Shown here in pieces: positions 3,716 to 61,129 of a DNA stretch of 64,000 nt. The notes beneath the pieces are model-generated. The model saw nothing but the letters and a program-made list of their open reading frames with translations. It was not told the origin of the DNA and did no database searches. The position numbers and the translations under genes are program-made. Source of the stretch: Halanaerobium saccharolyticum (GTDB lineage Bacteria > Bacillota > Halanaerobiia > Halanaerobiales > Halanaerobiaceae); the NCBI RefSeq assembly GCF_003259895.1, contig NZ_QLME01000001.1, positions 120,152 to 184,151 on the forward strand, given 5' to 3'. Numbering within the stretch: the stretch's first letter is position 1; each line of letters opens with the position of its first letter.

Positions 3716-3757
3716 TAAAAAAAACTCCCATCAGAAACTTTAAGTTCTAATGAGAGT
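3716..3757 (-). terminator. Intrinsic terminator (shared family)
   Basis: Minus strand: stem ACTCTCATTAGAAC...with its complement, then a run of eight T. It follows directly on the stop of the broken gene at 3758-4004. Preceded on the plus strand by TGTTGCAATAAAA, also seen before other members of the family. Confidence 0.75.
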
Positions 3758-41103: not shown

Positions 41104-41517
41104 TTATTCATCTTTCTGAAAAAAAGGAGGAGTGATTATAGTTAAATCATCATCAATGTTTGTAATATTACCGATCAAAAGAGATACTTTTTCTAATACC
41201 GGAGCAAGAATTTCTCTATCTTCTTCAACTTCTTTTTCTAGATTATCCATATTTAAATCATCTGCAAAGTCCTCATTAAGCTCAAAGATTACATTTAGCT
41301 CTACTAAGATATTATAAAATATTTCAGGCGTAAAAAACACTTTTCTAATAAAGGTCAAATATACAAAATTCTCATCATAATCTTTTACAATAACTTCATC
41401 TGCTATTTTAAGATCTATATTTTTTTGACCTATTTCTTCGTCTTCCAGACCTAAATAATTGAAGTCAATGTTAATCAAATTTATCTTAGGATATCTAGCT
41501 ACATTAATAAAACTCAT
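41104..41517 (-). CDS. SecB-like chaperone of a toxin-antitoxin-chaperone system
   Basis: About 137 residues from the ATG at 41517 (GAGGGGTG just before; an in-frame GTG at 41526 is inside that site). RKVFFTPEIFYNILVELNVI and the ending ILAPVLEKVSLLIGNITN match the SecB-like chaperones that control antitoxins, such as Rv1957 and MqsC. Such chaperones bind the unfolded C-terminal tail of the antitoxin and stabilise it. It is the third gene after the toxin and antitoxin genes, 45 bp after the latter. Confidence 0.75.
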   Translation of the reverse strand: MSFINVARYPKINLINIDFNYLGLEDEEIGQKNIDLKIADEVIVKDYDENFVYLTFIRKVFFTPEIFYNILVELNVIFELNEDFADDLNMDNLEKEVEEDREILAPVLEKVSLLIGNITNIDDDLTIITPPFFQKDE

Positions 41518-41561
41518 GGTGTTCACCCCTCAGCTAAAAATTACACAGATTTAATTTCACT

Positions 41562-42314
41562 TTATTTATTTTTAATTTTATATTTAACTTTTTCTTCAGA
41601 TATAGATTTCTGATTCCAAACTGCTGCTGGTGATGTTTTATATCTTAAAATTGACGTTTGAATATCTTTTTTCAATTTATTTATTTCTTTTTCAGCTTTA
41701 TCAGCAGCATTTTCCTTAGTTATTAAAAAGAGAAGATATTCAGATATATTCATTTTATCTTTTTCAGCCTTCATCTTAATTTGTTTATATAATTCTTCCG
41801 GTAAAGTAACTTCTACTTTATTTTTATTAGCTATCATTTCTTCAAGTCTTTTACTCAGCTTTTTAATAGTTTTACTGCTGAGATTATCTGAATTGTTTTC
41901 CAGTAAAATTTTAACATTAGATGGCTCTTTAATTAATCTTAGTTGATTATTATGGGTTTGATCGGGTAAAGAACCATTTTCATATCTATGATAAGTTATT
42001 TCTCCCCAGCCTAATAGTCTGCTTATTTCTTTCTGAGTTAATTTATATTTTTTTCTAATATCTCTTATTTCTTTAACAGATAGAATGTTTTTCTTTTCTC
42101 TAAACTTATCAAATGCTCTTTTTTGGTTTTCCTTATCTAATTTTTCATGAAATAGTTTTTCTTTACAATTTTTACACACAGCTACTTTAGCATTTATTTC
42201 AATTTCTTCCTGGTTTAATATATTGCGACTCTCTTTTATTGATTCAATATTATATTCTACAAAGTCATCACATTTATCACAAAATAATTTATCAATATCT
42301 TTTGATTCTTGCAT
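41562..42314 (-). CDS. MqsA-like antitoxin with zinc finger, HTH and C-terminal extension
   Basis: 250 residues. N-terminal YgiT/MqsA-type zinc finger (CDKCDDF at ~12, CKNCKEK at ~48), then an HTH (KKYKLTQKEISRLLGWGEIT, HRYENG) as in MqsA/HigA. The long C-terminal extension ends LRYKTSPAAVWNQKSISEEK. In chaperone-addicted systems such a tail with a tryptophan-containing hydrophobic patch (ChAD) is bound by the SecB-like chaperone. The protein represses its operon and neutralises the toxin. GGAGG site at the start, 28 bp after the toxin stop. Confidence 0.8.
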   Translation of the reverse strand: MQESKDIDKLFCDKCDDFVEYNIESIKESRNILNQEEIEINAKVAVCKNCKEKLFHEKLDKENQKRAFDKFREKKNILSVKEIRDIRKKYKLTQKEISRLLGWGEITYHRYENGSLPDQTHNNQLRLIKEPSNVKILLENNSDNLSSKTIKKLSKRLEEMIANKNKVEVTLPEELYKQIKMKAEKDKMNISEYLLFLITKENAADKAEKEINKLKKDIQTSILRYKTSPAAVWNQKSISEEKVKYKIKNK

Positions 42315-42341
42315 TTAAAACCCTCCTCGCTTTATAGTCAA

Positions 42342-42713
42342 TTACTTGTAGGGAAAATCAATAGGATAATCTGCTTCATGAAAAGATAAGCAGATAACCT
42401 GTTCTCTACCTCTAGTTTCAATCCTTAATTTTATGTAAAACAATGTATTTCCAAGAGCAGTATTAATTTCCCTGGCAAAAAACCACCAGTCATAATTATT
42501 AAATTCTTTATCATCAGGTTCAGGACCCTTCCAATAATCTTTAACTTCCAAAGTTTCTATATAAAATTTTGCTATATCTATTTTTAAACCGTGTTTATAT
42601 AATGAATTTAAATTCTTTTCTCTATCTACAAAATGAAAACCATTAATCTTTCCTATAACTTCTCGCATCCGGGATAAAAAATTATTAATTTCTAATTTAT
42701 TTGCTGATGCCAT
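42342..42713 (-). CDS. mqsR: MqsR-like ribonuclease toxin
   Basis: 123 residues. FHFVDREKNLNSLYKHGLKI, LEVKDYWKGPEPDD and ICLSFHEADYPIDFPYK are the motifs of the MqsR/GCU-specific toxin family (the DY..GP loop and the SFH-AEYP-PF end). MqsR cleaves mRNA at GCU-like sites. It is the first gene of a three-gene operon with the antitoxin and a SecB-like chaperone. Repeat copy 4 with promoter features is ~110 bp upstream. It looks full-length. Confidence 0.8.
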   Translation of the reverse strand: MASANKLEINNFLSRMREVIGKINGFHFVDREKNLNSLYKHGLKIDIAKFYIETLEVKDYWKGPEPDDKEFNNYDWWFFAREINTALGNTLFYIKLRIETRGREQVICLSFHEADYPIDFPYK

Positions 42714-42907: not shown

Positions 42908-42947
42908 AAAAAAACTCCCACCAGAATTTAATAACTCCAGTGAGAGT
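42908..42947 (-). terminator. Intrinsic terminator (shared family) after subtilase gene
   Basis: Minus strand: ACTCTCACTGGAG pairs with CTGGTGGGAGT, then seven T. It sits directly behind the subtilase stop (42966) and ~50 bp before repeat copy 4. Confidence 0.85.
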
Positions 42948-42965
42948 AGCAGTCTAAACTAATAT

Positions 42966-45443
42966 TTAATTCGAAACTTTAATCTCAATTTCTTCAGCAA
43001 TATCAATTAAGTTAATAATTTCTGTATATAACTCAACGTCTTCTTGTTCAGTAGTTAAAGAAACTACTAACGAATATCTCATTTTTTCTTCTGCTTTTCC
43101 CAAATAACTTCTGGTCTTCCACCACCCATTTGCCGGATAAACTGCTATTTCATTCATCTGAGAAAGATCAGCTGCTATTCCTTCCCACATATCAGAATGG
43201 ATTGAGCCTTTATCTCTGGCATTCATACCTAATGTCCAGTTATCAGTAGTAGTATTATTATAATTATCATTTTTATCTTTTTCTTTTTTATTAATTCTTG
43301 ATAAAAAAGTCTGTTCATCTTCATCAGGTCTTTTTAAATCAAATCTCAATAGAGCAGAAGGATACCTATATCTATCTTTCCAGCCTATCTCTCCTGGACC
43401 TGGTTCAATGAAATATGATAATGTTATTTGCATTTGTACTTCTATTTCGCCTAATGATAGCAAAATATCTTCTGGCCATGGTATTTTATATAAATTCATT
43501 TCTTTTGAACGATAATTACTTGTTGCTTTTTCAAAAGGTTGAATTTCATCTTCAATTACTAAGTTAACAGCATTCTCATAACTCCATCTTGCTCTTTCTA
43601 GATTTGGAACTCCATAACCACAAGTTCTTAATAACTTTAAATAATCAGATTTAAGTTCTCCATCTAGAAACTGTTCTTTCATTTTATCTGTCCATTCTGC
43701 TGAATGAATAATTAGAGCTCTTATTGTTTCCGGCCAGACTTCTGGATACTCAGCCATTAATTGTGAGGCAAACCAGGAAGCTTTAGCAGTTGCTGCACTT
43801 GTCATATTTATTGAAGCAAAATGATTTTCAGTATATTTATAATTTGTAGTTAGTTCCGAAAGATCTTCACAACTAGAAAAAAATGGTTCTTTAGCTGATA
43901 TATTATCTACAGCCAAATTTCCACCTTCCATTAATATTTCAGGTTTAATTGCCCAATCATTATCCCAACTACGAGAAGTCTTACTGAATGGAGAAAGTCC
44001 ACCAACCGGAGCTAATGCTTGATAATCACTATAATCAGGATCAATAATCTCATTTTTATTAGTAAATGCTCCTACTGTAATTGCATTCCAGGCCTGACCC
44101 GGTTCCTCAACAACTGAAGTAAGATTACTTTGAGGGTAATTTAAATAATTTCTTTTTTTAACTACGTTACCTGCAGAAACAAATAATAATCTTTTAGTGT
44201 TGTCATAATAACCAGAAGTAACTGCATCTACTGCTGCAGACCAGGATGAAGGTGCTCCAGTATTTAAAATATAATTATCTGCTGTTACTGCCATGCAGAA
44301 AACTCGATTTAATTCAGGGTTTTCTATTTCTGCTTTATAAATAGCTTCTTCTAATATATAGCCGTATAACCCTTCATCATTTTCTCCAGTTGAAGGAAGA
44401 ATTTTGACTGATTCAATAAAATGATCAATATCTAATTTTTTACCCGTGTTTATTGCTTGTTGTAAGTCATTATAAATTGCTAATCCAGCCATCATTGTAC
44501 CATGACCAGAATGATCATAGCTCCCCCACTCTAAATTATAACTCTGACAGTTATTATTACAAACTGGATCTATAAGTGGATGTCCTGAATTCAAACCGGT
44601 ATCAAGTACACAAACACTAGTTTTGCAATTCTCATTCATATTTAATCGTGATAATAAATCATCTACCCACTCAATCTGTTCCCTGTTTTCTAAACCTGTA
44701 AAAAAATCAGTAGTTAATGATTTCCTTCTTATTTCAGCAATTACTGGTCCCTCTTCTATTAAATCTAAAATTTGTTTGTTATTTAGATAAACAGAAAATA
44801 CTTTTCTTTCAGGAAAATTAATAACACCTTTACTAACATGAACATCTAAAGACTCAGCTAGCTTTATAAATTCATCTTCGATATCCTCACCATTATCATA
44901 AATCCAAATTTCACACCACAATTTATCTTCATCAGGAATCCACTCTATCTCACCCTGCCAGAACGATTCTAAAATTGCCAACTTAATATCCTCAATACAA
45001 TCAATTAAATCTTGATTGCTTCTTCTACCTTTACTAGTTACCTGATCAGGATCTAAATATTTTTTTATTTTACCTAGAAAATGTCCCTCTTTACCGTCGG
45101 GAATAAAAACTAAAACTTTCATCTTATTAGCTTCTTTTAAATACTTAATATTAAGTATTCTAATTTTCTTTCTTCTATCTTCTAAACTTTTGACTTTATA
45201 TTTAAGCGAATCATCAATTATGAATTCTAAATATGTTCCCTGTTGAGACCTGAAATATTTATTTTCCTTTTTAGTTTTCTTCTTTTCAGCCTCTTTCCAG
45301 ATGTTTTTTAATTTGTCAACTAGTTTATTACCATGCTTTGAAACTTGCTTTGTAGGAAATTCATTATTTACTGGTGTGCTTTTTGGTGTAAAATCAATTA
45401 TATCTGGAGACAAATTAATAAATATATTTCTTTTATTCTCCAT
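42966..45443 (-). CDS. Subtilisin-like (S8) serine protease of a protease-ATPase pair
   Basis: 825 residues without signal peptide, so cytoplasmic. Catalytic triad: D281 (CVLDTGLN), H314 (HSGHGTMMAG), S549 (INMTSAATA); oxyanion N425 (SAGN). The first ~230 residues are a basic, helical N-terminal region (KKKTKKENKYFRSQQGTYLE) found in ATPase-linked subtilases, and the C-terminal ~250 residues are a beta-rich region (MQITLSYFIEPGPG). The AAA ATPase gene lies 14 bp upstream. Such pairs occur in defence islands, where infection signals presumably activate the protease through the ATPase; that part is inference. Confidence 0.85.
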   Translation of the reverse strand: MENKRNIFINLSPDIIDFTPKSTPVNNEFPTKQVSKHGNKLVDKLKNIWKEAEKKKTKKENKYFRSQQGTYLEFIIDDSLKYKVKSLEDRRKKIRILNIKYLKEANKMKVLVFIPDGKEGHFLGKIKKYLDPDQVTSKGRRSNQDLIDCIEDIKLAILESFWQGEIEWIPDEDKLWCEIWIYDNGEDIEDEFIKLAESLDVHVSKGVINFPERKVFSVYLNNKQILDLIEEGPVIAEIRRKSLTTDFFTGLENREQIEWVDDLLSRLNMNENCKTSVCVLDTGLNSGHPLIDPVCNNNCQSYNLEWGSYDHSGHGTMMAGLAIYNDLQQAINTGKKLDIDHFIESVKILPSTGENDEGLYGYILEEAIYKAEIENPELNRVFCMAVTADNYILNTGAPSSWSAAVDAVTSGYYDNTKRLLFVSAGNVVKKRNYLNYPQSNLTSVVEEPGQAWNAITVGAFTNKNEIIDPDYSDYQALAPVGGLSPFSKTSRSWDNDWAIKPEILMEGGNLAVDNISAKEPFFSSCEDLSELTTNYKYTENHFASINMTSAATAKASWFASQLMAEYPEVWPETIRALIIHSAEWTDKMKEQFLDGELKSDYLKLLRTCGYGVPNLERARWSYENAVNLVIEDEIQPFEKATSNYRSKEMNLYKIPWPEDILLSLGEIEVQMQITLSYFIEPGPGEIGWKDRYRYPSALLRFDLKRPDEDEQTFLSRINKKEKDKNDNYNNTTTDNWTLGMNARDKGSIHSDMWEGIAADLSQMNEIAVYPANGWWKTRSYLGKAEEKMRYSLVVSLTTEQEDVELYTEIINLIDIAEEIEIKVSN

Positions 45444-45457
45444 TTTTATTTAGCACC

Positions 45458-46414
45458 TCAATTTTCGTATGAAATTTTTTTCTCTTCTATCATTCGTTCT
45501 AATAATCCTTTATTAACCATATCCTCATCATTTAATATAGTTTCTTTAATAGCATCATCACAAGCTTTTGTTATCTCTGAATGACTTAAACCCTTAGCTG
45601 TTTTTACTATATCATCTATTAAAAAATCATTTTTAGAAAAGGAAGCTATTCTATTTTTAATTAAACGATAGATTTCCTTTTCAGTTGGCAATTTATAAGA
45701 AATTATATCATCAAATCTTCTAAAAAGTGCTTCGTCTAATAATTTAGGATGATTAGTTGCAGCTAAAACAATACTTTTAGAGTTGTCATTTTCTAAAAAT
45801 TGCAAAAAAGAGTTAATAACACGCCTCATTTCTCCCACATCATTATCTAAAGATCTTTTGTAACCTATTGCATCAAATTCATCAAATAAAAATACTGCTT
45901 CAATATCTTTAATCATCTCAAAAATAACCCTAAGTTTTGCACTAGTTTCTCCCATATATTTTGTAACTAACTTATCCAATTGAACAGTAAATAATGATAA
46001 ATTTAATTCCTTTGCAATAACACTTGAAGTATATGTTTTCCCGGTTCCAGGAGGACCTTTTAATAATATTTTTCTTCTATTTTCCAAACCATGTCTTAAT
46101 AACTTATCTCTTTTTTTATATTCTTTTACAATTCTCTTAATTTTATTATTAATATCATCATTAACTATTAACTCTGATAAATAATGTTTTTCATTAACTT
46201 CTTCAACAAGGCCTTTATATTCTCTCTTTAATCTTACTACCTTTTGAGGTCGATTTTTATATTCATCAACTAAAGAACGAATATCTCTAGCAATTATCTG
46301 ATGCCCATTTTTAGCTTCATGAGCAGCTATTCGTAAAGCAACCGTAGAAAACTGTTCTTTGTCCCCATTAAAATGTGTTTTTATTATGCTTTTGAGTTGT
46401 TCTCCTGTTGCCAT
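45458..46414 (-). CDS. AAA+ ATPase partner of the subtilase
   Basis: 318 residues. Walker A LLKGPPGTGKTYTSS (G120-T127), Walker B AVFLFDEFDAIG (D178, E179), sensor 1 IVLAATNHP and arginine finger ALFRRFDD: a classical FtsH/CDC48-like AAA module with a short N-terminal helical domain (~1-70). It is the first gene of the pair. It probably unfolds a target or acts as a nucleotide-controlled switch for the protease. GGTGAT ribosome site. Confidence 0.87.
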   Translation of the reverse strand: MATGEQLKSIIKTHFNGDKEQFSTVALRIAAHEAKNGHQIIARDIRSLVDEYKNRPQKVVRLKREYKGLVEEVNEKHYLSELIVNDDINNKIKRIVKEYKKRDKLLRHGLENRRKILLKGPPGTGKTYTSSVIAKELNLSLFTVQLDKLVTKYMGETSAKLRVIFEMIKDIEAVFLFDEFDAIGYKRSLDNDVGEMRRVINSFLQFLENDNSKSIVLAATNHPKLLDEALFRRFDDIISYKLPTEKEIYRLIKNRIASFSKNDFLIDDIVKTAKGLSHSEITKACDDAIKETILNDEDMVNKGLLERMIEEKKISYEN

Positions 46415-46570
46415 AATTTATCACCAACTTCCTTTATTCCGCAATACAAATGTATCTATATAATTATTATATTCTATAACATTAATCATATCAATAAAAT
46501 AATTCAATTTAACTAAAATTTCCTATTTACTCAAAAACTCAATTCAACACAGGGAGCATTTAGTTGCAAT

Positions 46571-46610
46571 AAAAAAACTCCCACCAGAATTTTAATATTC
46601 CAGTGAGAGT
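46571..46610 (-). terminator. Intrinsic terminator (shared family) before the ATPase gene
   Basis: Minus strand: CTCTCACTGGAATATT stem with ATTCTGGTGGGAG and seven T. It ends the 92/161-residue operon. The plus-side linker (CAACACAGGGAGCATTTAG TTGCAATAAAAAAACTCCC) is a diverged copy of that at 3695-3730. Confidence 0.85.
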
Positions 46611-46629
46611 AACGGTCTAAATTATTATT

Positions 46630-47115
46630 TTATTTATTCTTTTTATATGTGCCGGCTCCCCAACCACCCAGAAAACCTAAACCAATTTTTAAAACATCTA
46701 AAAATATATCCTGACTATCTTTTGCTAAGAATATTGTTAAAAACACAAATAATGCTATTCCTAAAACAACATATATTAGTCTATGATTTTCCTGTTTATT
46801 TTTTAATTCAAATTCACGATCTTCAGCTTTATCAGATATATCAAGCAATTTATCAATATGCTTTTCATTAATACTATTCGCCAACTGGGGAGGAAAAGGT
46901 GATGAAGTCATACTGCTACTGGATATCATAAGTTTTCTTAGAACTTTTTTTTCATCACCAGGCAATTCTTCTAAAATTTCTTCCATTTTTTCAGGATCTA
47001 CCTCTTCTGAATCCAGCAGTTCATCAGATAATTCATCTTCTTTTTTGGTATCTTCAGTGGAACCTTCTTTTTTTAATTCATTATCTTTATTTTCATTTTC
47101 TTTAGAATTACTCAA
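46630..47115 (-). CDS. Membrane-anchored protein, 161 aa (DUF2335-like)
   Basis: TTG start with GGAGGG 8 bases before. Acidic N-terminal ~80 residues (DELSDELLDSEEVDPEKMEE), then SSPFPPQLANSINEKHIDKL and a KAEDREFELKNKQENHRL helix, then two membrane segments (LIYVVLGIALFVFLTIFLA and VLKIGLGFLGGWGAG). The PPP/Q..L then charged-helix then two-TM order resembles DUF2335 proteins, which occur next to defence genes. Function unknown; co-transcribed with the 92-residue gene. Confidence 0.6.
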   Translation of the reverse strand: MSNSKENENKDNELKKEGSTEDTKKEDELSDELLDSEEVDPEKMEEILEELPGDEKKVLRKLMISSSSMTSSPFPPQLANSINEKHIDKLLDISDKAEDREFELKNKQENHRLIYVVLGIALFVFLTIFLAKDSQDIFLDVLKIGLGFLGGWGAGTYKKNK

Positions 47116-48824: not shown

Positions 48825-50488
48825 TTAAGTCTGGTTAATATATTCTTTTATATCATCCCATTTACTGGTAGAGGCATAATCATCTCCATCTTTAACTAAA
48901 ATACCAGCTGAAACTAATTTTTTATTTGATTCCTCTTCAACTGGTTCAATACCATTTTCTTTTAATTTATTTAAATCTGGCAAACAATCATTGTTTAAAT
49001 CTTTCATTTTATAAATAGCAATTATTTTATCCCGTAATTCCTCAAGTGTTTGATGATCGATCCTATGAGCAGTTTCAGTCCAAAAATGTGCTTCTTGATT
49101 TAACATACTATAATTATAGTTTTCTTTTATATCAGATAATAATTCTTTTACAGGATAAATTATTTTTTTAGATTTAATCACAGACTTCAATAGCTGAGAT
49201 AACCCATATTTTCTCATTTCATCTTTAAATGGTACATTTATCTTTTGCTCTTCAGCCATATGATAAACAGCATTTTCTAATGCAATCCGCATATATAACA
49301 AAGCATTTCTGCAATCATTTTTAGCTGTTGAGCGTTTTATGATATCTGCAAAATTATTATTAGCTTCTTTTAATAATAATTCATCACTAAAATAATAACT
49401 AACAGCAGTATTAGCTTCAGCCAAATTAATTAATTTTTCTTGAAACAATTTATCATAGGTAGTTATAATAATCTGTCTGTCTTTTTTTGACTCTGATATA
49501 ATTAAATCAATCATATTTTTCCGGTGATCAATATCTACTGCATTAATTATATCATCTAAAACTAACAATGAAAGACCTGATTTTTCATGAAGAGCTAACA
49601 AAATAGCGAGCCCAAAACATTTCAATTGTCCTTCGCTTAATATTTTTCTGGGATCATTATTTTCTCCCTTATATCCCTTAAAATTAATATCAAGTACAAT
49701 ATCTTTTTTATTTTTAAAATGTATTTCCTCAATTTTATTATCAATAACTATATCATTATAATATTCTTTTATTAATCCTGATAATTGGGATAAAAGATTT
49801 TTTATAAAATCATTCCTGTGATTATTCATAATATCTTCAAATTCTTTAATTTGCTGAAGAATTTCATCTATTTTTTTATTGCTTTCTATTTCTTTTTCAA
49901 AAGCCTTTTCAGCTTTTTCTATATCCTCATTATATTTAGATATCTCTTCTTTTTTCTTTTTGTAATTTCTTAATTTTTCCTCAATTTTATCAATAGTTTC
50001 TAATTCTTGATCATAATTATCACTTTCATTATATAATAATTTTTCTTTTTGCTTGTGTATATATTTTTCATTTAAATTTTCCTTAACATAATCTAAATTT
50101 AATTCTTTAAATAATTCTTTTAATTTCACTTTTTCATCTCTTTTTGCTGTATCCGCTTTTTTAATCTTTTCCCTTACCTCGGTTAATTTTTTGGCTGCTT
50201 TTAGATAATCGCTTACCTCACTTTTAATTTCATCAATAGCTTTATTACTATCACCGCATAACGGACAATCGTCCAGCTTTTTTTCTTCAAAAATCTCCTC
50301 AGCTTTTCGGTATAAATCTAAAATATTCTCATCAATATTTTCTTTTAGAGCAATTTCTAATAATTCTTTCTTTAATTCCTTAATTTCTTTTTTAAATTTA
50401 CTCCATTTTCTTATTAATTCTAGTCCTTTATTTAAATTTAAAAGAATACTTTTTTCATTTGTTAATTTTGATATTCTTTCGTTTTTAA
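48825..50488 (-). pseudogene. Zinc-hook ATPase, C-terminal half (fused to transposase frame)
   Basis: The reading frame is continuous with the transposase upstream, giving a fusion of about 840 codons, but from 50488 on the text is that of a RecN/SbcC-like ATPase: coiled coils, a zinc hook CPLCGDSNKA, LSEGQLKCFGLAILLALHE (signature), SLLVLDDIINAVD (Walker B) and ITTYDKLF (switch). The C-terminal ~200 residues (YMRIALENAVYHMAEEQK, AHFWTETAHRID) form a further helical, HEPN-like domain. Its N-terminal half is at 51753-52781. Together they would be ~880 residues, the ATPase of the deaminase-metallopeptidase operon. Confidence 0.8.
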
Positions 50489-51644
50489 TTAAATGAGTTT
50501 TGACTTTTTTGGCTCCCATTACAGTTAAGTTCTCTAAATTTAGATGCTCTTTTAGTCTGGAAAAAGTTCTCTCAACACTGGTTCTCTTGTTGTAGATCCT
50601 TCTCCAGGTTCTAGAGTCTCTATGTGGTGTTGATATATATCTGGGGTTCTCTTTTGGTCTAGTTTTAGTTACCTGACCGTAGTTGCTGTCAGAACACCAT
50701 TTAGTTCCATGAATACAATCAACTTTACCACATACATGTGGGCATCTAAATTTGTTGACTCCTTTGTAATGACCCCAGTAATACATTTTGTGGCCTCCAC
50801 TGCAGACTGGTGTTCCTTTAAAATCATAGAATCCAGCTGGTGGCTGTTTAGCATTACGCTTGTTAATTGGAATAATAGCCTGAGACTCCTGCTCAAAGAG
50901 AATATGTTCATAGATATCAGTGTAATCATAGCCTGAATCCATAGTCCAGTATTTGGGTTTAGTTAAATCTCTTTCAGCTAAAAAGTCATTAACCTTTTCA
51001 ACTAGGGGTATTGCCTGAGTTTTATCTGCATGATTGGCTGGAGTTAAAGTTAAAGCAATCGGTAATTCTGAGTTAGTTTCAACTGCAGCATGTATCTTCC
51101 AGCCAAACCAGGTTATCTGATTTTTATGAGAGTCAAATTTAGTACCCCAATCAGGGGTAGAATTATTTTCTTTATCTATCTTTGACCTTGGTTTAGCTCG
51201 TTCATAAGCTTCCAGTTTTGAAGCATCAACAGCCATTGTCTCAGTGTCCAATAAGTTAAAAACAATACATTGATCCAAAAGATTATTCATCAGTATTTCC
51301 AGTTCATCAGTCTCAGATAATTTGCTGTAATATCGGCTGAAAGTTGCTTCACTGGGCACCCTGCCAGTGGTAGAAAAACCACAGACATATCTGAGATATG
51401 GACTTCTATCAATTTTGCTTACTAAGTCTGCTCTGGTAGGAATCTTTTCAATCTGCTGGACCAGAAAAGCTCTTAAAATAGCTTCTGGATTATATCCAGT
51501 TGGTCCTTTATTAGACTTAGGCTTTATCTTTTCAACAACAGGTTTAAGATCAATAGGATCTAAAATACAAATTAATTTGTCAGTTTCCGATAAATTAAGT
51601 AATTCTTCAAAGGGAAAGAGACACTCTTGTCGAATATTATTAAT
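50488..51644 (-). pseudogene. IS5/IS1182-type DDE transposase, C-terminally truncated
   Basis: The frame is open from the ATT at 51644, which lies 6-7 bases after AAGGTGA and is the likely start (no ATG/GTG/TTG upstream in frame; the GTG at 51359 is too far in). N-terminal DUF772 region (PTGYNPEAILRAFLVQQIEK, VCGFSTTGRVPSEATFSRYY). DDE triad: AVDASKLEAY (D), WTMDSGYDYTD (D), TSVERTFSRLKEHL (E); a cysteine cluster (CPHVCGKVDCIHGTKWC) lies before the E. All catalytic residues are present but the last ~25 residues and the right IS end are gone, so mobility is doubtful. Confidence 0.8.
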
Positions 51645-51711
51645 AGGGCTTCACCTTCTTTCGAGTTTTTTGGGTGTTACTATTAAATTCGACAAGAATG
51701 GGGTGAAGCCC
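51626..51711 (-). other. Interlocked inverted repeats around the transposase start
   Basis: GGTGAAGCCC (51702-51711) and GGGCTTCACC (51646-51655) pair; ATTCGACAAG (51687-51696) and CTTGTCGAAT (51626-51635) pair. The arms alternate (1-2-1'-2'), so in RNA they form a pseudoknot or two exclusive hairpins. Arm 1' covers the AAGGTGA ribosome site; 2' lies just after the ATT start. This is a likely translational lock against read-through. Confidence 0.75.
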
Positions 51712-51752
51712 TTTTTATATCATTAAAATCTTTGTTATATCAAGGCTTATTT

Positions 51753-52781
51753 TTATGAAATTCGCTTAATTTTTTTAAAATGATCAATATCAAGTTTATT
51801 AATAAAAGAATTATTATCATCTAATGATTCTTCAGGAAAAATTTCATTGATAATTTCACTTTCAATTTCAGTAAATTTTATTTCTGGCTCAATTACTTCT
51901 TTATTTTCTAACTCTTGCAGCTTTTCTTTTGCTATATTTTCTTTTGCATATAATTCTTTTCCTTTTTCTGTAGAATAATTGCGCCAATATTTTTTAATAA
52001 ATCTATTTATTTTAGAAAATCCAAGCAGCTCTCCATATAGTTCAATTTGTTCCTTGCCTTTTGATAGGACAAAAGAATCAATTCTATTTTTTTCTATAAA
52101 CACTTTATTCATTTCTTTATTTATTTCATTTATGATAATTTCGTTTTCTGCCTCAAAATCATTTTTAGTTAATTCAATTGTACCCTCAGTATCTCTACTA
52201 AGATTTATTTTATTATTAGTAGCGTAATCAATTAATTTAACATCGACTTTTCCCTTTTCAGAATTAATGTTTTTTATGTAATTAAAGATGTTTCTTTTAT
52301 TATATTGCCTTCTATCTGCTTCTCTTACATGCCCAGTTAAGGAAAATTCTAAAGCTTCGGTAAAACTACTTTTTCCTTGACCATTAAAACCAAATAATGA
52401 AATGATTTTAGTTTGTTTTTCGATGTTTAAATATGGTTTATTCCCATATTCGCAGCCTTTATTACTGTCTTTACAAAAAGGTATATCTGCTATACCCCTA
52501 ATGCCAGAAATATAAATACATTTAATTTTTATTTTTTTAATGAAGTCAACATTTTCTGCAGCTTCTCTTTTACTTAACATCCCAATGTCTTGAAGATGCT
52601 TTTCGTCATCCAAATATTCTTCTATTTCAGTCTGCATTATCTCACTAACTTTGTTATTTTCTTCAACTATTAACAAATCTGAAAATCGTTTAATAAATAT
52701 TTTCTTTATAAGATTATTTTCAAGTTCAGGTTTTTGCAATAGCTCTCTTAAGAATAATGATAAAATAATTATTACCCCCAA
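51753..52781 (-). pseudogene. Zinc-hook ATPase, N-terminal half
   Basis: About 342 residues. IYISGIRGIADIPFC then LFGFNGQGKSSFTEALEFSL (Walker A, 131-138 from the TTG at 52781) and ENRIDSFVLSKGKEQIELYG, LEFSLTGHVREADRRQ: the N-terminal ATPase half of an SbcC/RecN/Septu-type protein. It breaks off at the IS with HFKKIKRIS and stop. The TTG lacks a clear ribosome site; the same frame is open up to the stop of the deaminase gene (52836), suggesting re-initiation at an odd codon. Last gene of the operon. Confidence 0.75.
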
Positions 52782-52835: not shown

Positions 52836-53450
52836 TTAAGAATTAATCGGAAATTTATTTTTTAACATTTGAAGATCTTCATCCTCAGAAATACTGGATA
52901 ATTTAGGATCAGAATTAGCAACATATTTAGAAATAGAATCACTAAAATAAGCTTCTCTTTCTTCACCATCTACAGAAAATAGAATCAATTGCACAATTCT
53001 CAAGCCTGGATATAAAGCTATTGGATTTGAAGAATTATTTACCAACTCTAAATTAATTACTCCCGCATAACCGGATTGTAAAACAGAAGAAATATTTAAG
53101 CCTAGCCTGTTCCAGGAAGAACGGGTAAAGATAATTCCAAATAAATTATCAGGTAGTTTGACATATTCAAAAGTAGAAGCAAGTACCAACTGTTGAGGAT
53201 ATAATATGAATTTTTCTCCAAAATTACGATAAGTATCCTGAAAAAAAGTCTCAATTGGACGTCTATCACTTAAAGGATCAAAAAATGGCTTTCGTGTCCG
53301 CATATCAACTTCAAATTTAGTTCCTAGCCTTAAATCAATTGTGCTTTCACCAATTTGTTTTTCATTGTCAAGAATAGGAGTAATAGTTAAGCTATTTTCA
53401 GCTTTTGAAGTCAACAAATTATTAATCTTTTCCTTTGAGATAATTGACAT
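52836..53450 (-). CDS. dcd: dCTP deaminase/dUTPase-superfamily protein
   Basis: 204 residues from the ATG at 53450, which has GGAGGTG 9 bases before it; TAATG overlaps the stop of the metallopeptidase gene by one base, and a GTG at 53462 is inside the ribosome site. Motifs: RSSWNRLGL (~110-118) and SGYAGVINLELVN (~126-138), the dCTP deaminase pattern with catalytic glutamate at ~135 and glycine-rich loop. It should convert dCTP to dUTP (or act on dUTP). In defence context such enzymes deplete dCTP after phage infection. Coupling to the metallopeptidase gene suggests one system. Confidence 0.85.
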   Translation of the reverse strand: MSIISKEKINNLLTSKAENSLTITPILDNEKQIGESTIDLRLGTKFEVDMRTRKPFFDPLSDRRPIETFFQDTYRNFGEKFILYPQQLVLASTFEYVKLPDNLFGIIFTRSSWNRLGLNISSVLQSGYAGVINLELVNNSSNPIALYPGLRIVQLILFSVDGEEREAYFSDSISKYVANSDPKLSSISEDEDLQMLKNKFPINS

Positions 53451-54862
53451 TAACCCTGCCACCTCCGCTGGATTCTACTGGTTCTAAGTGAATACTTCAT
53501 CAAATCATTTATTAGAAGGTTTAAATCATAATCTCCATTTTTCCCATCTATTTTCCCAACTCTTTTTTTCAACGAATTTTTATAGAGAAATTTAGCGTAC
53601 CAACCAGAATTTATAATTGCAATTGGATCAGCAGCAATATTATTTAATTCATTTGGTGGAATAACTTCTTTGATTCTTTGTTCAGCAAGTTTTTCAGCCT
53701 GGCTTAGTTTGTTTTTATTGATAATATTTTTCTCTCCCAATAACTGTTTTGATTCAGCTAACATATCAGGAGTTAAATCATTTATTATATCTTCTAATTT
53801 TTGAAACATAAATTTGCTTTCCTGAACCGTATAATTAATATTATTAATTATAATATTCCCTGATCTGTTTTGCTGCTGATTATTACTATTAGCATAAGCA
53901 TCTTGATAGGATTCAATTTTTTCTTTTAATAATTCGGGAAGCTCATTGTATATTTTAAGTTCTTTTAGCGCTTTTAACATCAGATTAAACCTAAAGCTTA
54001 AACGAGGATGTGATACAGAACATGTATTGCTTAAATTATCATTATAAAAATTATTTATATTAGTGCTATTTATCACAAAATCAAACATAGAAAAAACAAA
54101 TCCCGGTCCGACTGTATAAACAGCTAATATATCAGATAATAATTCTCTTATCCAGTTTATTAAATAACATCTTCTGAATATATTAACTAATTCTACCTGC
54201 CCAAGCTGATTACCTTTATTAGCATAAATACATTTTCTTAAGCTTAAAAAGTCATCACTATTAAAATCTATTTTTTGAAATATCTTATCAGCAAAATTAT
54301 TCTCTTCAACCAAATAATGACCTATTTCGTGAAAAAATATTCCAGATAGTAGTAAATTGTTTTTATGATTTTTAGGAAAAGTTAACTTGATAAATTTTTT
54401 ATTTACTGTAAAACCAGTCATATTTAGCTCTTTTTCTAAAAACATTTTTAATTTAAACCAGATTTCACTAAAAGAAAAGTTCATTTCCTCTCTAGGAATT
54501 GTTAAGATTTCAAAATCATTTTTTTCGATATCTTTAATCAAATCTCTAAAAACATTCATTATTTCTAAAGGATGTGATTTAAAATCTGTATTGGCTACTG
54601 CTTTTGCTATTCTTTGTAAATGACCTTGATCCCAGATGTTATTAGCCAGGATAGTTTTGTCACTAAAAAAATCATCATTATTTTTAAGATCATTATGGGC
54701 TATTTTCTTAAATTCAGTAATTATCATCTTAAGATCATTTTCAATAAATTTTTTTACTATATCTGATGGATAAGCCTTATTGCTCAAAATATTTAACTTT
54801 TCTTCATATTTACAAAAAGAATCTAATAAATTATTTAGATATTCCTCTTTTGAAATAATCAT
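53450..54862 (-). CDS. Zinc metallopeptidase-like protein (HEIGH), 470 aa
   Basis: HEIGH at 178-182 (GIFFHEIGHYLVEENNFADK), with a downstream acidic helix INWIRELLSDILAVY (E240 or D244 as third ligand) and TVGPGFVFSMFDF, and SVSHPRLSFRFNLM. The E-x3-D then GP-x-F order is like metallopeptidase-type proteins found in defence islands. N-terminal ~170 residues are helical, the last ~150 have a long glutamine/asparagine stretch and coiled segments. No signal peptide. The start overlaps the 144-residue gene by almost nothing (two bases) and the stop overlaps dcd, so translation is coupled. Confidence 0.75.
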   Translation of the reverse strand: MIISKEEYLNNLLDSFCKYEEKLNILSNKAYPSDIVKKFIENDLKMIITEFKKIAHNDLKNNDDFFSDKTILANNIWDQGHLQRIAKAVANTDFKSHPLEIMNVFRDLIKDIEKNDFEILTIPREEMNFSFSEIWFKLKMFLEKELNMTGFTVNKKFIKLTFPKNHKNNLLLSGIFFHEIGHYLVEENNFADKIFQKIDFNSDDFLSLRKCIYANKGNQLGQVELVNIFRRCYLINWIRELLSDILAVYTVGPGFVFSMFDFVINSTNINNFYNDNLSNTCSVSHPRLSFRFNLMLKALKELKIYNELPELLKEKIESYQDAYANSNNQQQNRSGNIIINNINYTVQESKFMFQKLEDIINDLTPDMLAESKQLLGEKNIINKNKLSQAEKLAEQRIKEVIPPNELNNIAADPIAIINSGWYAKFLYKNSLKKRVGKIDGKNGDYDLNLLINDLMKYSLRTSRIQRRWQG

Positions 54863-54863
54863 A

Positions 54864-55298
54864 TTAATAACCCCAACTGTTCATTTGATTGCTTTCCAAT
54901 TTAAGCTTTAACTGATTATTTATTTCTTCTAATAATTTGATTAGTTCATCCATTTCTCCAGGTTCAAGTGATTTTTCTCTTTTAAATGAGATTAAATAAT
55001 TATGGTACTTTTCAGCTTCTTCTAAAACATCATCAATAGTTTCAACTTTTATGTCCATATTATTTAGTGCAGAAGTAAATATAGAAAATGCATCAGCACC
55101 TGAAAACTCATTATTTAATTCACTAAACTGCTTATTACAGAAGTCAAGAATAACTTCAAAAAACTTAATAGTAAGTTCATAATTTTTATCTTTACTATCT
55201 TTTTCTTTAGTTAAACTTTTAATAATTTTATTAAAAGTCAGTGATAAAGATAAATCAAATAAAGAATTCTCCTGTTTTTGACTGTAATCCATTAACAT
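54864..55298 (-). CDS. Helical hypothetical protein, first gene of operon, 144 aa
   Basis: Unrecognised. Fully helical and charged (SLTFNKIIKSLTKEKDSKDK, ELTIKFFEVILDFCNKQF, LEEINNQLKLKLES). GGGGTG 8 bases before the ATG. First cistron of the four-gene unit with the metallopeptidase, dcd and split ATPase. It may be an adaptor, a sensor or an antitoxin-like inhibitor; nothing in the sequence decides. Confidence 0.6.
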   Translation of the reverse strand: MLMDYSQKQENSLFDLSLSLTFNKIIKSLTKEKDSKDKNYELTIKFFEVILDFCNKQFSELNNEFSGADAFSIFTSALNNMDIKVETIDDVLEEAEKYHNYLISFKREKSLEPGEMDELIKLLEEINNQLKLKLESNQMNSWGY

Positions 55299-56386: not shown

Positions 56387-59300
56387 TTATAAGATATTTT
56401 CTCTAAGCATATATCCCACAGAAGATCCTTTATCAATTAGAAAATTTAATATTATCATAAGCCCATCTCTCACTTCTCTTTTTCGCTTTATTTTTTCTTG
56501 ATTTTTAAAAACATAATTTCTTGTAAAATTCTCCAAATGGTAAATAGTATTTGTCTCTAGTTTTTTATTAATATAGCCTTTATTACTACCGATAATATTT
56601 GAAATCCACTTTAAACCATCATCTATATAATAACTACCGATATCATTTAATAACTTAGAAATTGCATATAAAGTAGAAGGACAATGGCCAATCTTGTCTG
56701 AAATTTCTGTAAAAAACCTTTTATTATTATCTTTGAAGGAATGCCATACTTTAACATCTTCCTTCCAGGGAACTTGGGCAAAAAGATAGCTCTTAATTAG
56801 CTTGTTAATATTCCAACTATTTTTAACCTCTTTACAAACACTAATAACTTTTGGTTTGAATATATTCCATACTAACCAAAAATTATCGTATGTATTTAAT
56901 TTGTCCTCAGCTTTAACGAACTCTTTAAATAAATCAGCAATCGATTCATAAGTACCGAACTTATCAATAAATGGCTTCAGTAAATTTGGAATATCCTCTT
57001 TCTGTGAAGTTAATACAAAATGAGAATATTTTTTAAGAAACTCATGTTTTACCATATAATTAACTTTTTTATCAAAACTATCTATTAATATTTCATCTGC
57101 AAAAGCAGAAACTATTATTTGTACAATTTCCTTATGTACCTCATTATCAGTTTTCTGAGGAATCATTTGAAAAGCAGTTTTTAATATACTTAAATTATTT
57201 TTTGAAATATCTTCTTTAGTATTAAACATTAATGAATTATCTATAATACTTTTAATAGTCTCTTCATTTTCTTTAAAAAACCTTTCCATTAGTTGTTCTT
57301 TATCTAATTCATGTATACCCTTTCTGAAATTTTCTTCTCGAATTTTTTTCTGTAACTTGTCATATTTGGGTCTCAAAAATAAATAGCCCAATAATAAGTA
57401 TTGTGCGTCATTGAAATTATTTTCCCATAACTTATGGATAGCATTAATAGAAAAGATACTAAAACTAGCATTTGAAACTAATCCACCAACTGAATCATCC
57501 TTGAACAGAGTAAATAATAGAATTGTTTTTATTATTTCCTTTTCTTTAGGAAATACTTCTAACAGTATTGGTAGTGAAGAAATGGCTGGCTGCACTCCAT
57601 CAGATATTTGATATCTATAATTTGGGTTAAGAGAATTACCTGCATATTCGATAAGTATATCTTTACAAAATTCTTTGTCTTTTTCTGAAAGCTTATTCAT
57701 ATTATTCTCTATCAAAAGAGAACATACATATGCAGGAATTGATCGATTTATACGTAAATAGCTTTGCTGGTTATCATAATCTACATTATCCAAATCATCT
57801 GATCCAATTTGTTCAGCTTCTTCAATTATATCCTTGACTTCTTGAAGAGCCAATAAAGGATCATTTTCATATTTATCGTATTTCTTATAATCTTCATCAT
57901 CATTAAATTTGAGTTCAGCCCAATGTTTTAAAGATAAGTGTTTTGTGAGTTGAGAACTTTTTTCCAAAGCTTTTTCACTATACTTCTGTAAATCAGGCTC
58001 AATTTTTGGATTAAATTGAATTTCAATACCGTTTTCAACAAATTCCGTAGTTATATTTATTTTTCTTCTATCCATTCTGGAAAGAAATAGTCTCCAGGTT
58101 TTATCGGTTTCATTCTCTTTTAACTCATCTGTTAATTCTTGATAGTAGTCATCTAAAATATTCCATAATACTTCTTGCCTGTCTTCTGCTACCTCTTCAC
58201 TTGTTTCTTCACTTCTAAAACATTGGTAATTTAAAAATAAGCGCTCTAATGATAATTTTCGATGTTTATCTTCACAGGTTTTAATCCTTTCATTTTCGTA
58301 AAACTCATTACCTCTACTCCCCATATTTCGGCCCAAAGAGTATAAAGATTTAGTACTTTTTTCCGAAACTAACCTAGTAGTGTCCTGAAGAATAAACTCC
58401 TTTGTTTTAAATAGTATCTTCGCTATATTAAATGTTTTTTCAGGATAGGCTAGAACAATGCTTGCTACAATTGAAGTAATTGATGCAGATTCAGAATTTT
58501 TAATAAGATATAAAAGCATATTTTCTAAACTTTCTGAGTTAATCTTCTCTCCTACTTCTAAAAGATATTTTTCTAAAGCCATATGGATAGACTGAAGCAA
58601 ATAAGGACTTCTAGGTGAACTGGTACCTCTATACATATTCCAAAGACAATGGCTAACATATTGTTTTATACTATTTTCCTCATTTATATAAACTTTAACT
58701 TCTTTTACAGAATTATCAAATCCTGATTGGGCATACTTACTTATCGATTTGTTTGTAAAACGTAATATAAAGTCTACTGTACTATTATAAGAAAATTGTA
58801 ACAACCAATAAATTGGTGTTTGAAAGGCACTTGAAGGAAAATAATCAAGATGATATTCTTCCAAACCAAAATAGGATTTTATATCTAAAGAGGAATGACC
58901 AAAAGGATATTCTGATTTTGGTGTAATAGTCCAAAAAAGATCAGCCAATTTTATTACGCAATTTGGTAGGTATTTACAAACTAAAATTCCTTCAAGTTTT
59001 GTTAAAATAAATTTTGAAAAATCATAATAAGGGTCTCTATGACGCTTCCATTTATTTTGAATAATTTTCTTGAAAATGTTTTTTAACTCAGTTTTTATTT
59101 CAGCCGCACCATAAATAATAGTTTTTAAAAGCTGTTCTTTGATATTACCGTCAGATAAATAAATGTCTTCACTAATAACCCATTCATAATATTGTAATGC
59201 AACTAAAGAAGAATATCTTGTTGTTTTACCTTCTTTAATATTACTATTCCAGTCATAAATAATAGGCAAAATAAAATCTATATTATCTATACCTATTCGT

Positions 59301-61129
59301 TCTATATTTTCGTATGCAAATTCTATTAAACACTCCCATCCTTGTCCTTTTGGTTTTGTTAGGACATAATCTAATTTAAATATATCTAAATTTTTCAAAC
59401 CCAGCTCTTTAAAAAAATCTTCATTAATTTCCTTACAAGATATTCTCAATAAAAAAGTAAGTCTTTTTAATAATTCCTGTTTATTTGCTAATAATTCCTT
59501 TTCAAAAATATCAAAAAAAACTTTTGAATAATTTGAAAGTAAAACAGATACAAATATTTCGTCTTTCCAAAAAGATTCAATTTTGTCACTGTCAAAAACT
59601 TCTTCAATAAATATCTTAATGTCATTGTCTTCTAATAATAGTTTTTCTGATATCCAATTTCTAAAACATCTCCGTATTGGTAGAGAGTGACCTATTTTTT
59701 TAAAAAAGTCTTCGTTCGTAGCTTTTTTAATGTATTCACTTTCTATGATTTTCTCCAAAGCCCATTCCTCATAAATATCATGTGTAATAAAATACCCTGC
59801 TAACTCATACCCTAAAATCCCCTCTTTTGTTAATTCGTTTAGAATATTTGAATCACAATCACAACTAGAATTAATAAAAAAATGACCACTATTTGCACGT
59901 TCAAATGCAATCGTTAAAAAACAACGTTCTCTTTCAGGTTTAAACTTTCTTATAATTTTATTCCACAATTTATTCTTAAACTCAATATAATCCAATTCTT
60001 CAGCTGGATTATAGTATTTTAAATATTCATTAAGATAAAATGGATTTCTTATTAATTCCAAAAGTTTATTATCTTTTGGTAATGAAAATTCATATTTATC
60101 GGAAATTGAATTTAGTTCTTTCAATTCTATATTTTTTACATTTATATTTAACGGAGCAATATTATAGACTTCAAAAAATTGATAATTTAATTGCTCTAAA
60201 TAATTATTTCTTGTTGTAAAAATAATTTTCCATTTATCTTTAATAAGTTCAGCAAGAAATTCTTTGAAAGGATCTTTATTCCTAAGATCTAACAGCTTTT
60301 CTGCAGAATCTATTATAATAATTTTAGTTTTCTTTTCTTTATACGCTTTAACAAAATTATAAAAACTATAGTCGTTAAATAAATTATTAATATTTCTTAA
60401 CTCAAACTCTGTTGCTTTAAATATAAAAAAGGGTGTATTGTCTTTTAAATCTTCATATAATTTTTTAATTAGTACTGTTTTTCCAACCCCACCAACACCA
60501 CTTACAATGGTTATCTGTTGTGATTGATCCCTTAATTTTTCAAGCTTTTTATCCCGGTTAATTTCAAAACTTGTATTATTAAAATTTATACTAGTTTTTA
60601 TACCAGATAATATGTTTTCATTATGATTCTGTTGTTCTTCTAATAAATCAAATATACTTGTATCAAAAGTAAAAAAATGTTTAGTAATAATTGCATTTTT
60701 ATTGGATACAAAATCAGACTCAAAAAAACTAGCAGTCCTCCATTCTAAAATAATATTTAATCTTTCTGCCTTTTCTTCTATATCCATTAATCCTTCTGGT
60801 TTTTTCCCTTTATATTGTCCCCACTCTTGGTTCGTATAAAAAATCAATTTCGTTATATTTGAATAATATTTTTTTGATTTTTCAATTGTAGTTAATAAAT
60901 CTTTTTTATGATTAGAAAGTGTAGAGTTATAAAACTTTGCTTGCCATCCTATTATATTACCATCTATTTCAATAGGATTAGTTTCAATTGCAGCCTGGTT
61001 TTTAAATCGGAAAATACCATATTGTTTTTTATACTCCCTACAAAAAAGCAAATAACAAAACCATTCAAAATAACTTTGAGGATTTTCATTGAATTTTGCT
61101 TCAAAAATTTTCCAGTTAGGTTTAATCAT
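56387..61129 (-). CDS. Avs-like STAND NTPase with N-terminal nuclease-like domain, 1580 aa
   Basis: N-terminal ~150 residues have FEWFCYLLFCREYK, IETNPIEIDG and GWQAKFYNS: the E...QxK pattern of an Mrr/PD-(D/E)XK-like domain (E49, Q63, K65). Then a STAND NTPase: Walker A SGVGGVGKTVLIKKL (211-218), Walker B KIIIIDSAEKLLD, and FTTRNNYLEQL. The remaining ~1100 residues are helical repeats, the target-sensing part. This is the layout of Avs antiviral STAND proteins, which recognise phage terminase or portal and then cut DNA; whether it is Avs4-like or another type cannot be told by eye. GGGGTG ribosome site. The gene stands alone and its downstream side abuts the cut mannose gene. Confidence 0.82.
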   Translation of the reverse strand: MIKPNWKIFEAKFNENPQSYFEWFCYLLFCREYKKQYGIFRFKNQAAIETNPIEIDGNIIGWQAKFYNSTLSNHKKDLLTTIEKSKKYYSNITKLIFYTNQEWGQYKGKKPEGLMDIEEKAERLNIILEWRTASFFESDFVSNKNAIITKHFFTFDTSIFDLLEEQQNHNENILSGIKTSINFNNTSFEINRDKKLEKLRDQSQQITIVSGVGGVGKTVLIKKLYEDLKDNTPFFIFKATEFELRNINNLFNDYSFYNFVKAYKEKKTKIIIIDSAEKLLDLRNKDPFKEFLAELIKDKWKIIFTTRNNYLEQLNYQFFEVYNIAPLNINVKNIELKELNSISDKYEFSLPKDNKLLELIRNPFYLNEYLKYYNPAEELDYIEFKNKLWNKIIRKFKPERERCFLTIAFERANSGHFFINSSCDCDSNILNELTKEGILGYELAGYFITHDIYEEWALEKIIESEYIKKATNEDFFKKIGHSLPIRRCFRNWISEKLLLEDNDIKIFIEEVFDSDKIESFWKDEIFVSVLLSNYSKVFFDIFEKELLANKQELLKRLTFLLRISCKEINEDFFKELGLKNLDIFKLDYVLTKPKGQGWECLIEFAYENIERIGIDNIDFILPIIYDWNSNIKEGKTTRYSSLVALQYYEWVISEDIYLSDGNIKEQLLKTIIYGAAEIKTELKNIFKKIIQNKWKRHRDPYYDFSKFILTKLEGILVCKYLPNCVIKLADLFWTITPKSEYPFGHSSLDIKSYFGLEEYHLDYFPSSAFQTPIYWLLQFSYNSTVDFILRFTNKSISKYAQSGFDNSVKEVKVYINEENSIKQYVSHCLWNMYRGTSSPRSPYLLQSIHMALEKYLLEVGEKINSESLENMLLYLIKNSESASITSIVASIVLAYPEKTFNIAKILFKTKEFILQDTTRLVSEKSTKSLYSLGRNMGSRGNEFYENERIKTCEDKHRKLSLERLFLNYQCFRSEETSEEVAEDRQEVLWNILDDYYQELTDELKENETDKTWRLFLSRMDRRKINITTEFVENGIEIQFNPKIEPDLQKYSEKALEKSSQLTKHLSLKHWAELKFNDDEDYKKYDKYENDPLLALQEVKDIIEEAEQIGSDDLDNVDYDNQQSYLRINRSIPAYVCSLLIENNMNKLSEKDKEFCKDILIEYAGNSLNPNYRYQISDGVQPAISSLPILLEVFPKEKEIIKTILLFTLFKDDSVGGLVSNASFSIFSINAIHKLWENNFNDAQYLLLGYLFLRPKYDKLQKKIREENFRKGIHELDKEQLMERFFKENEETIKSIIDNSLMFNTKEDISKNNLSILKTAFQMIPQKTDNEVHKEIVQIIVSAFADEILIDSFDKKVNYMVKHEFLKKYSHFVLTSQKEDIPNLLKPFIDKFGTYESIADLFKEFVKAEDKLNTYDNFWLVWNIFKPKVISVCKEVKNSWNINKLIKSYLFAQVPWKEDVKVWHSFKDNNKRFFTEISDKIGHCPSTLYAISKLLNDIGSYYIDDGLKWISNIIGSNKGYINKKLETNTIYHLENFTRNYVFKNQEKIKRKREVRDGLMIILNFLIDKGSSVGYMLRENIL

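Follow-up and report, generated by a model that had tools for sequence, protein, structure and literature searches.

What does a subtilase that stays in the cytoplasm do for a bacterium, and what does the AAA+ ATPase encoded just ahead of it contribute? This question is raised by two adjoining genes of Halanaerobium saccharolyticum, which we studied within a window of 64,000 nucleotides (the whole stretch of DNA analysed; contig NZ_QLME01000001.1, positions 120,152 to 184,151). The first-pass annotation had described a protease and ATPase pair in a defence island, overlooking that this is a known and named type of system, IetAS or SgiAT, with toxin-antitoxin tests in relatives.

Identity and lineage of the gene pair

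Direct reading of the sequence places ietA first and ietS second, both on the minus strand and 14 bp apart (Table 1), in agreement with the coordinates, strand, order and gap given earlier. An S8 gene immediately preceded by a AAA+ gene on the same strand is the layout of IetAS, and both products are recognised by PADLOC (1.2e-43 for IetS and 4.2e-77 for IetA). The pair that gave the system its name is that of the Agrobacterium plasmid pTiC58, described by Yamamoto in 2009 according to PMC5006074 and PMC8562856. It has the same gene order, AAA+ then S8, and aligns with the window proteins over almost their full length, with 46% identity for IetA and 36% identity over 839 columns for IetS. In a tree of 35 rows, the window and pTiC58 proteins fall in one clade of 27 rows (support 100/100), apart from the database-type IteS; branches between the main clades are long and the mutual order of these clades is unsure. 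With full-length homology of both proteins and a shared clade, the window pair is, on sequence grounds, an intact pTiC58-lineage IetAS module, located in a Halanaerobium defence island whereas its namesake sits on the Ti plasmid. H. kushneri carries a pair 90% identical to it.

The database-type IetAS/IteAS (PADLOC PDLC02197; NCBIfam NF042956 for IteS and NF042959 for IteA) follows the same two-gene logic, but forms a separate clade and matches the window pair at 24% over about 418 aa for IetS and 32% over 230 aa for IetA. An anti-phage role of IetAS is recorded in both PADLOC and NCBIfam. That annotation rests on an anti-phage test by Gao in 2020, which reportedly concerned the database-type lineage. 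Against the two NCBIfam models the window pair obtains 49.6 bits (IteS) and 207.2 bits (IteA), under the curated cut-offs of 900 and 510 bits for these equivalogs; the pTiC58 pair is also under them, with 39.9 and 198.8 bits. The founding lineage thus lies below the current NCBIfam cut-offs, so that annotation will under-report it. A second pair, of the database type, is encoded in the same genome about 60 kb away (contig C1, about 99.5-103 kb; L046, 7554-10983). It scores 894 and 467 bits against the PADLOC models and 646.5 and 454.5 bits against those of NCBIfam, the latter again below the cut-offs.

Table 1. Features of the ietAS locus, in positions of the window.
Feature	Position	Strand	Description
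Intrinsic terminator of the ietAS operon	42914-42947	-	Hairpin and T run
ietS	42966-45443	-	825 aa; cytoplasmic S8 subtilase, presumed toxin
IetS residues 623-820, C-terminal beta-rich domain	42984-43577	-	KP-43/SubHal alignment
IetS catalytic Ser549	43797-43799	-	Invariant
IetS catalytic His314	44502-44504	-	Invariant
IetS catalytic Asp281	44601-44603	-	Invariant
IetS residues 170-245, second beta-alpha-beta-beta-alpha-beta module	44709-44936	-	AlphaFold2 model
IetS residues 65-160, first N-terminal alpha/beta module	44964-45251	-	AlphaFold2 secondary structure
ietS Shine-Dalgarno GAGGTG	45454-45459	-	Overlaps the ietA TGA stop; read from sequence
ietA	45458-46414	-	318 aa; classic-clade AAA+ ATPase, presumed antitoxin/regulator
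IetA arginine fingers R232-R233	45716-45721	-	Invariant
IetA pore loop 1 KYMGET	45944-45961	-	Sequence motif
IetA Walker A GPPGTGKT (residue 120)	46034-46057	-	Sequence motif
Promoter-like TTGATA-17-TATAAT upstream of ietA	46466-46494	-	11/12 consensus positions
Terminator of upstream neighbour gene 46630-47115	46577-46610	-	Same family as the ietAS terminator

Architecture of the two proteins

IetS belongs to the S8 family (Pfam Peptidase_S8, PF00082; 197 bits for a gathering cut-off of 21.8). The full S8 triad reported earlier is present, and D281, H314 and S549 are, together with the oxyanion residue N426, invariant in 35 relatives. No signal peptide was found, as had also been reported, hydropathy over 19 residues peaking at 0.49 in the N-terminal region. 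The large basic N-terminal domain of the first-pass annotation stands for residues 1-160 (net charge +13), but residues 161-245 are acidic (net -10). In the AlphaFold2 model (pLDDT 84.8), this part of the protein holds two alpha/beta modules at about residues 69-155 and 175-240. The second has the strand and helix order of a subtilase prodomain and its best Foldseek matches are pro-enzymes, at high rmsd, from which we infer that it may be prodomain-like; the Pfam I9 prodomain had no match among 35 IetS members, and VIA-align of the model gave no prodomain-only match, the catalytic core occupying that list. Residues 273-796 of the model align with KP-43 and SubHal (Z about 26), which have a known C-terminal beta domain, in keeping with the beta-rich C-terminus described before. 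Solved structures are related to IetS by sequence in the subtilase core, and none beyond it.

In IetA, the Walker B (DE178-179), the sensor (N221) and the other AAA+ motifs are invariant among the relatives aligned, and the model (score 84.9) combines a three-helix N-terminal domain with a classic AAA core. The S8 triad and the AAA+ motifs are thus both intact in the window pair, as expected of an IetAS module.

Transcription unit and terminator family

The overlap between the ietS ribosome-binding site and the ietA stop codon suggests that translation of ietS may be coupled to that of ietA. Promoter-like sites are no more frequent in this region than in shuffled sequence. The pair had been said to be bracketed by two terminators, and both hairpins are indeed real members of one family, with stems of 14-15 bp followed by a T run and folding energies of -18.8 and -18.0 kcal/mol (z of -4.3 and -4.5); the family counts 6-7 members in the window versus 0 expected by chance. 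However, the upstream hairpin serves as terminator of the neighbouring gene, and the downstream hairpin alone terminates the ietAS pair.

Copies of this family lie at positions 3718, 22871, 30264, 39436, 42908 and 46571 of the window, and all 7 whole-genome BLAST matches fall on the same strand of a 96-kb stretch (contig C1, 70335-166780). In H. congolense, a GNAT-gene cassette of about 900 bp stands between two terminator copies (L011, 5711-5889 and 6797-6963), and the window carries one hybrid copy (46564-46742) exactly at that place. The pattern looks as if cassettes were gained or lost through recombination at the terminator repeats.

Distribution, pairing and natural loss

Relatives were found by tblastn in 491 plasmid records (374 of them with at least 80% query coverage), and a search with an alignment query detected IetS relatives in 47 viral contigs; a pattern scan of the viral contigs for IetS alone gave 0 matches, the patterns being too specific. 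The lineage is patchy across the phylum; of 12 Halanaerobium genomes only 3 carry it, and in one of these it is broken. Far from being mainly outside accessory regions, the pairs are thus carried by plasmids, viral contigs and islands.

The pairing is obligate. IetA is directly upstream of IetS in 44 of the 47 viral contigs, the other three beginning at or near IetS, and an intact IetA accompanied an intact IetS in 40 cases out of 40. The reverse does not hold, as IetS is broken (3) or missing (4) at 7 of 39 judgeable pTi-lineage IetA loci on viral contigs. This asymmetry of 7 versus 0 reaches p = 0.016 in a sign test computed by hand, which was chosen because the two locus sets overlap and Fisher's test is not strictly valid for them, with the caveats that one locus (L100) shows a single in-frame stop, possibly a sequencing error, and that another (L116) is near a contig end. 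Such one-way loss is the pattern predicted for a toxin-antitoxin pair. In H. congolense, the reading frame of IetA is open, at 99% identity, and IetS is damaged in three ways: a stop codon ahead of the catalytic His, loss of the catalytic Ser region through an in-frame deletion between short repeats, and a lost C-terminal end. In a more distant relative from the same taxonomic order (L049), a stop codon interrupts IetA at 66, and all that is left of IetS is residues 1-109, fused to the part from 783 on. Purifying selection on both genes is indicated by dN/dS values of 0.14 for IetS and 0.08 for IetA in the comparison of the window with H. kushneri.

Defence neighbourhood

The earlier reading of the locus as a defence island is supported by its surroundings. 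The window encodes Avs4 (56387-61129; 2327 bits) and a helicase resembling MkoC, and also contains a Lmu/Ptu-like gene that is broken. Neighbourhoods of 7 relatives (60 ORFs, 118 kb), with genes for type I restriction, BREX, Gabija and DRT, matched 120 PADLOC families at 1e-30, against 3 for 8 control regions (110 ORFs, 136 kb) taken mostly from the same genomes.

Several further genes of the region deserve mention. At 48825-52781, an SMC/LmuB- or PtuA-like defence gene is apparently split by an IS1182-type transposase, and the transposase ORF is fused to the C-terminal part of the split gene. At 52836-55298, a gene resembling dCTP deaminase and a 470-aa gene of no assigned family overlap, with a 144-aa gene, likewise unassigned, alongside; they form a candidate unnamed defence operon. 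The FRG-domain protein encoded at 38352-39353 matches the PADLOC candidate system PDC-S15. In H. kushneri, reading of the translation shows a reverse-transcriptase-like gene (L010, 1279-2301) and a neighbour (57-1016) upstream of IetAS, perhaps a retron- or DRT-like system. Finally, an MqsA-family antitoxin-like protein with an extra C-terminal stretch is encoded at 41104-42713 of the window, between 123-aa and 140-aa genes without family; the region also occurs downstream of IetAS in H. kushneri, where part of the 123-aa gene has been deleted. This neighbour was rejected as a third component of IetAS, being shared with H. kushneri alone.

Mechanism and rival explanations

The mechanism of IetAS awaits description (PMC9958689), and our literature search for a paper on it found none. 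Two described pairs, compared here through their published descriptions, help to frame it. SgiAT of Salmonella Genomic Island 1 also has a AAA+ antitoxin gene upstream of a subtilase toxin gene, but on a mobilisable island; in E. coli, its protease is the toxin and its AAA+ ATPase the antitoxin (PMC5006074). Similarly, the mycoplasma AAA/S8 pair 0132/0133 has the same gene order, but on a minimal-cell chromosome; there, cells that lose only the ATPase gene die, and cells that lose the protease gene are unharmed (PMC6755753, PMC8562856).

We regard the window pair as probably a toxin-antitoxin, suicide-type defence module. Toxicity of IetS and its neutralisation by IetA have been shown for relatives and would apply here by analogy. 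Free IetS, a cytosolic subtilase, would be toxic to its own cell, and IetA, a AAA+ ATPase expected to form a ring and encoded ahead of IetS on the same message, would bind the protease and keep it inactive, possibly by way of the prodomain-like N-terminal module. Loss or disturbance of IetA, presumably through phage infection or through loss of the element, would free IetS, which may then cut proteins of the cell, and perhaps of the phage, so that growth would stop before the phage spreads.

It is conceivable, if doubtful, that the pair acts directly on the invader: IetA would recognise and unfold a phage protein and feed it to IetS, in the manner of ClpX and ClpP, and the toxicity of lone IetS would be a side effect of the lost gatekeeper. 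IetA does keep the pore loop and arginine fingers of threading AAA+ unfoldases, and its modelled fold resembles the proteasomal Rpt, p97, Vps4 and FtsH ATPases. However, a subtilase has an open active site and not a closed chamber like that of ClpP, and in relatives the protease by itself poisons the cell and is neutralised by the ATPase, which indicates inhibition and not dependence (PMC6755753, PMC5006074). We also think it unlikely that the pair is purely an addiction module stabilising its own mobile element, with defence genes as bystanders clustered around it. The 491 plasmid records would suit this explanation, as would the stabilisation of their own elements by pTiC58 IetAS and SGI1 SgiAT (PMC5006074 and the works cited there), but the window pair lies on a 362-kb contig with no plasmid sign noted, and the surroundings of relatives are far richer than control regions in restriction-modification, BREX and Gabija genes. 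A housekeeping quality-control protease is most improbable. The conservation of the two genes under purifying selection would suit it, but in Halanaerobium they occur in few genomes and are broken in one, and they are patchy in the phylum and present on plasmids and viral contigs.

Orphan phage IetA

Four viral contigs encode a full-length, motif-complete pTi-lineage IetA with no IetS anywhere on the contig; the contigs could be incomplete and the genes could be remnants. One lies between phage baseplate genes (L102), others adjoin head-tail connector genes (L105) or the major head gene (L130), and the last is near phage replication-type genes (L126). Full-length orphan IetA inside phage structural-gene clusters is possibly a new observation. 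The AAA genes of Paenibacillus phages were rejected as orphans, since in Yyerffej and phiT5282H an S8 gene follows closely, which makes full pairs. Tentatively, a lone phage IetA might serve as a counter-defence antitoxin keeping the host IetS shut during infection; the orphan genes could also have other uses.

Under the toxin-antitoxin reading, the window pair joins an addiction module known from pTiC58, SGI1 and mycoplasma to phage defence islands within one named family, and the orphan phage IetA would allow the use of an antitoxin by phages against their host to be tested directly.
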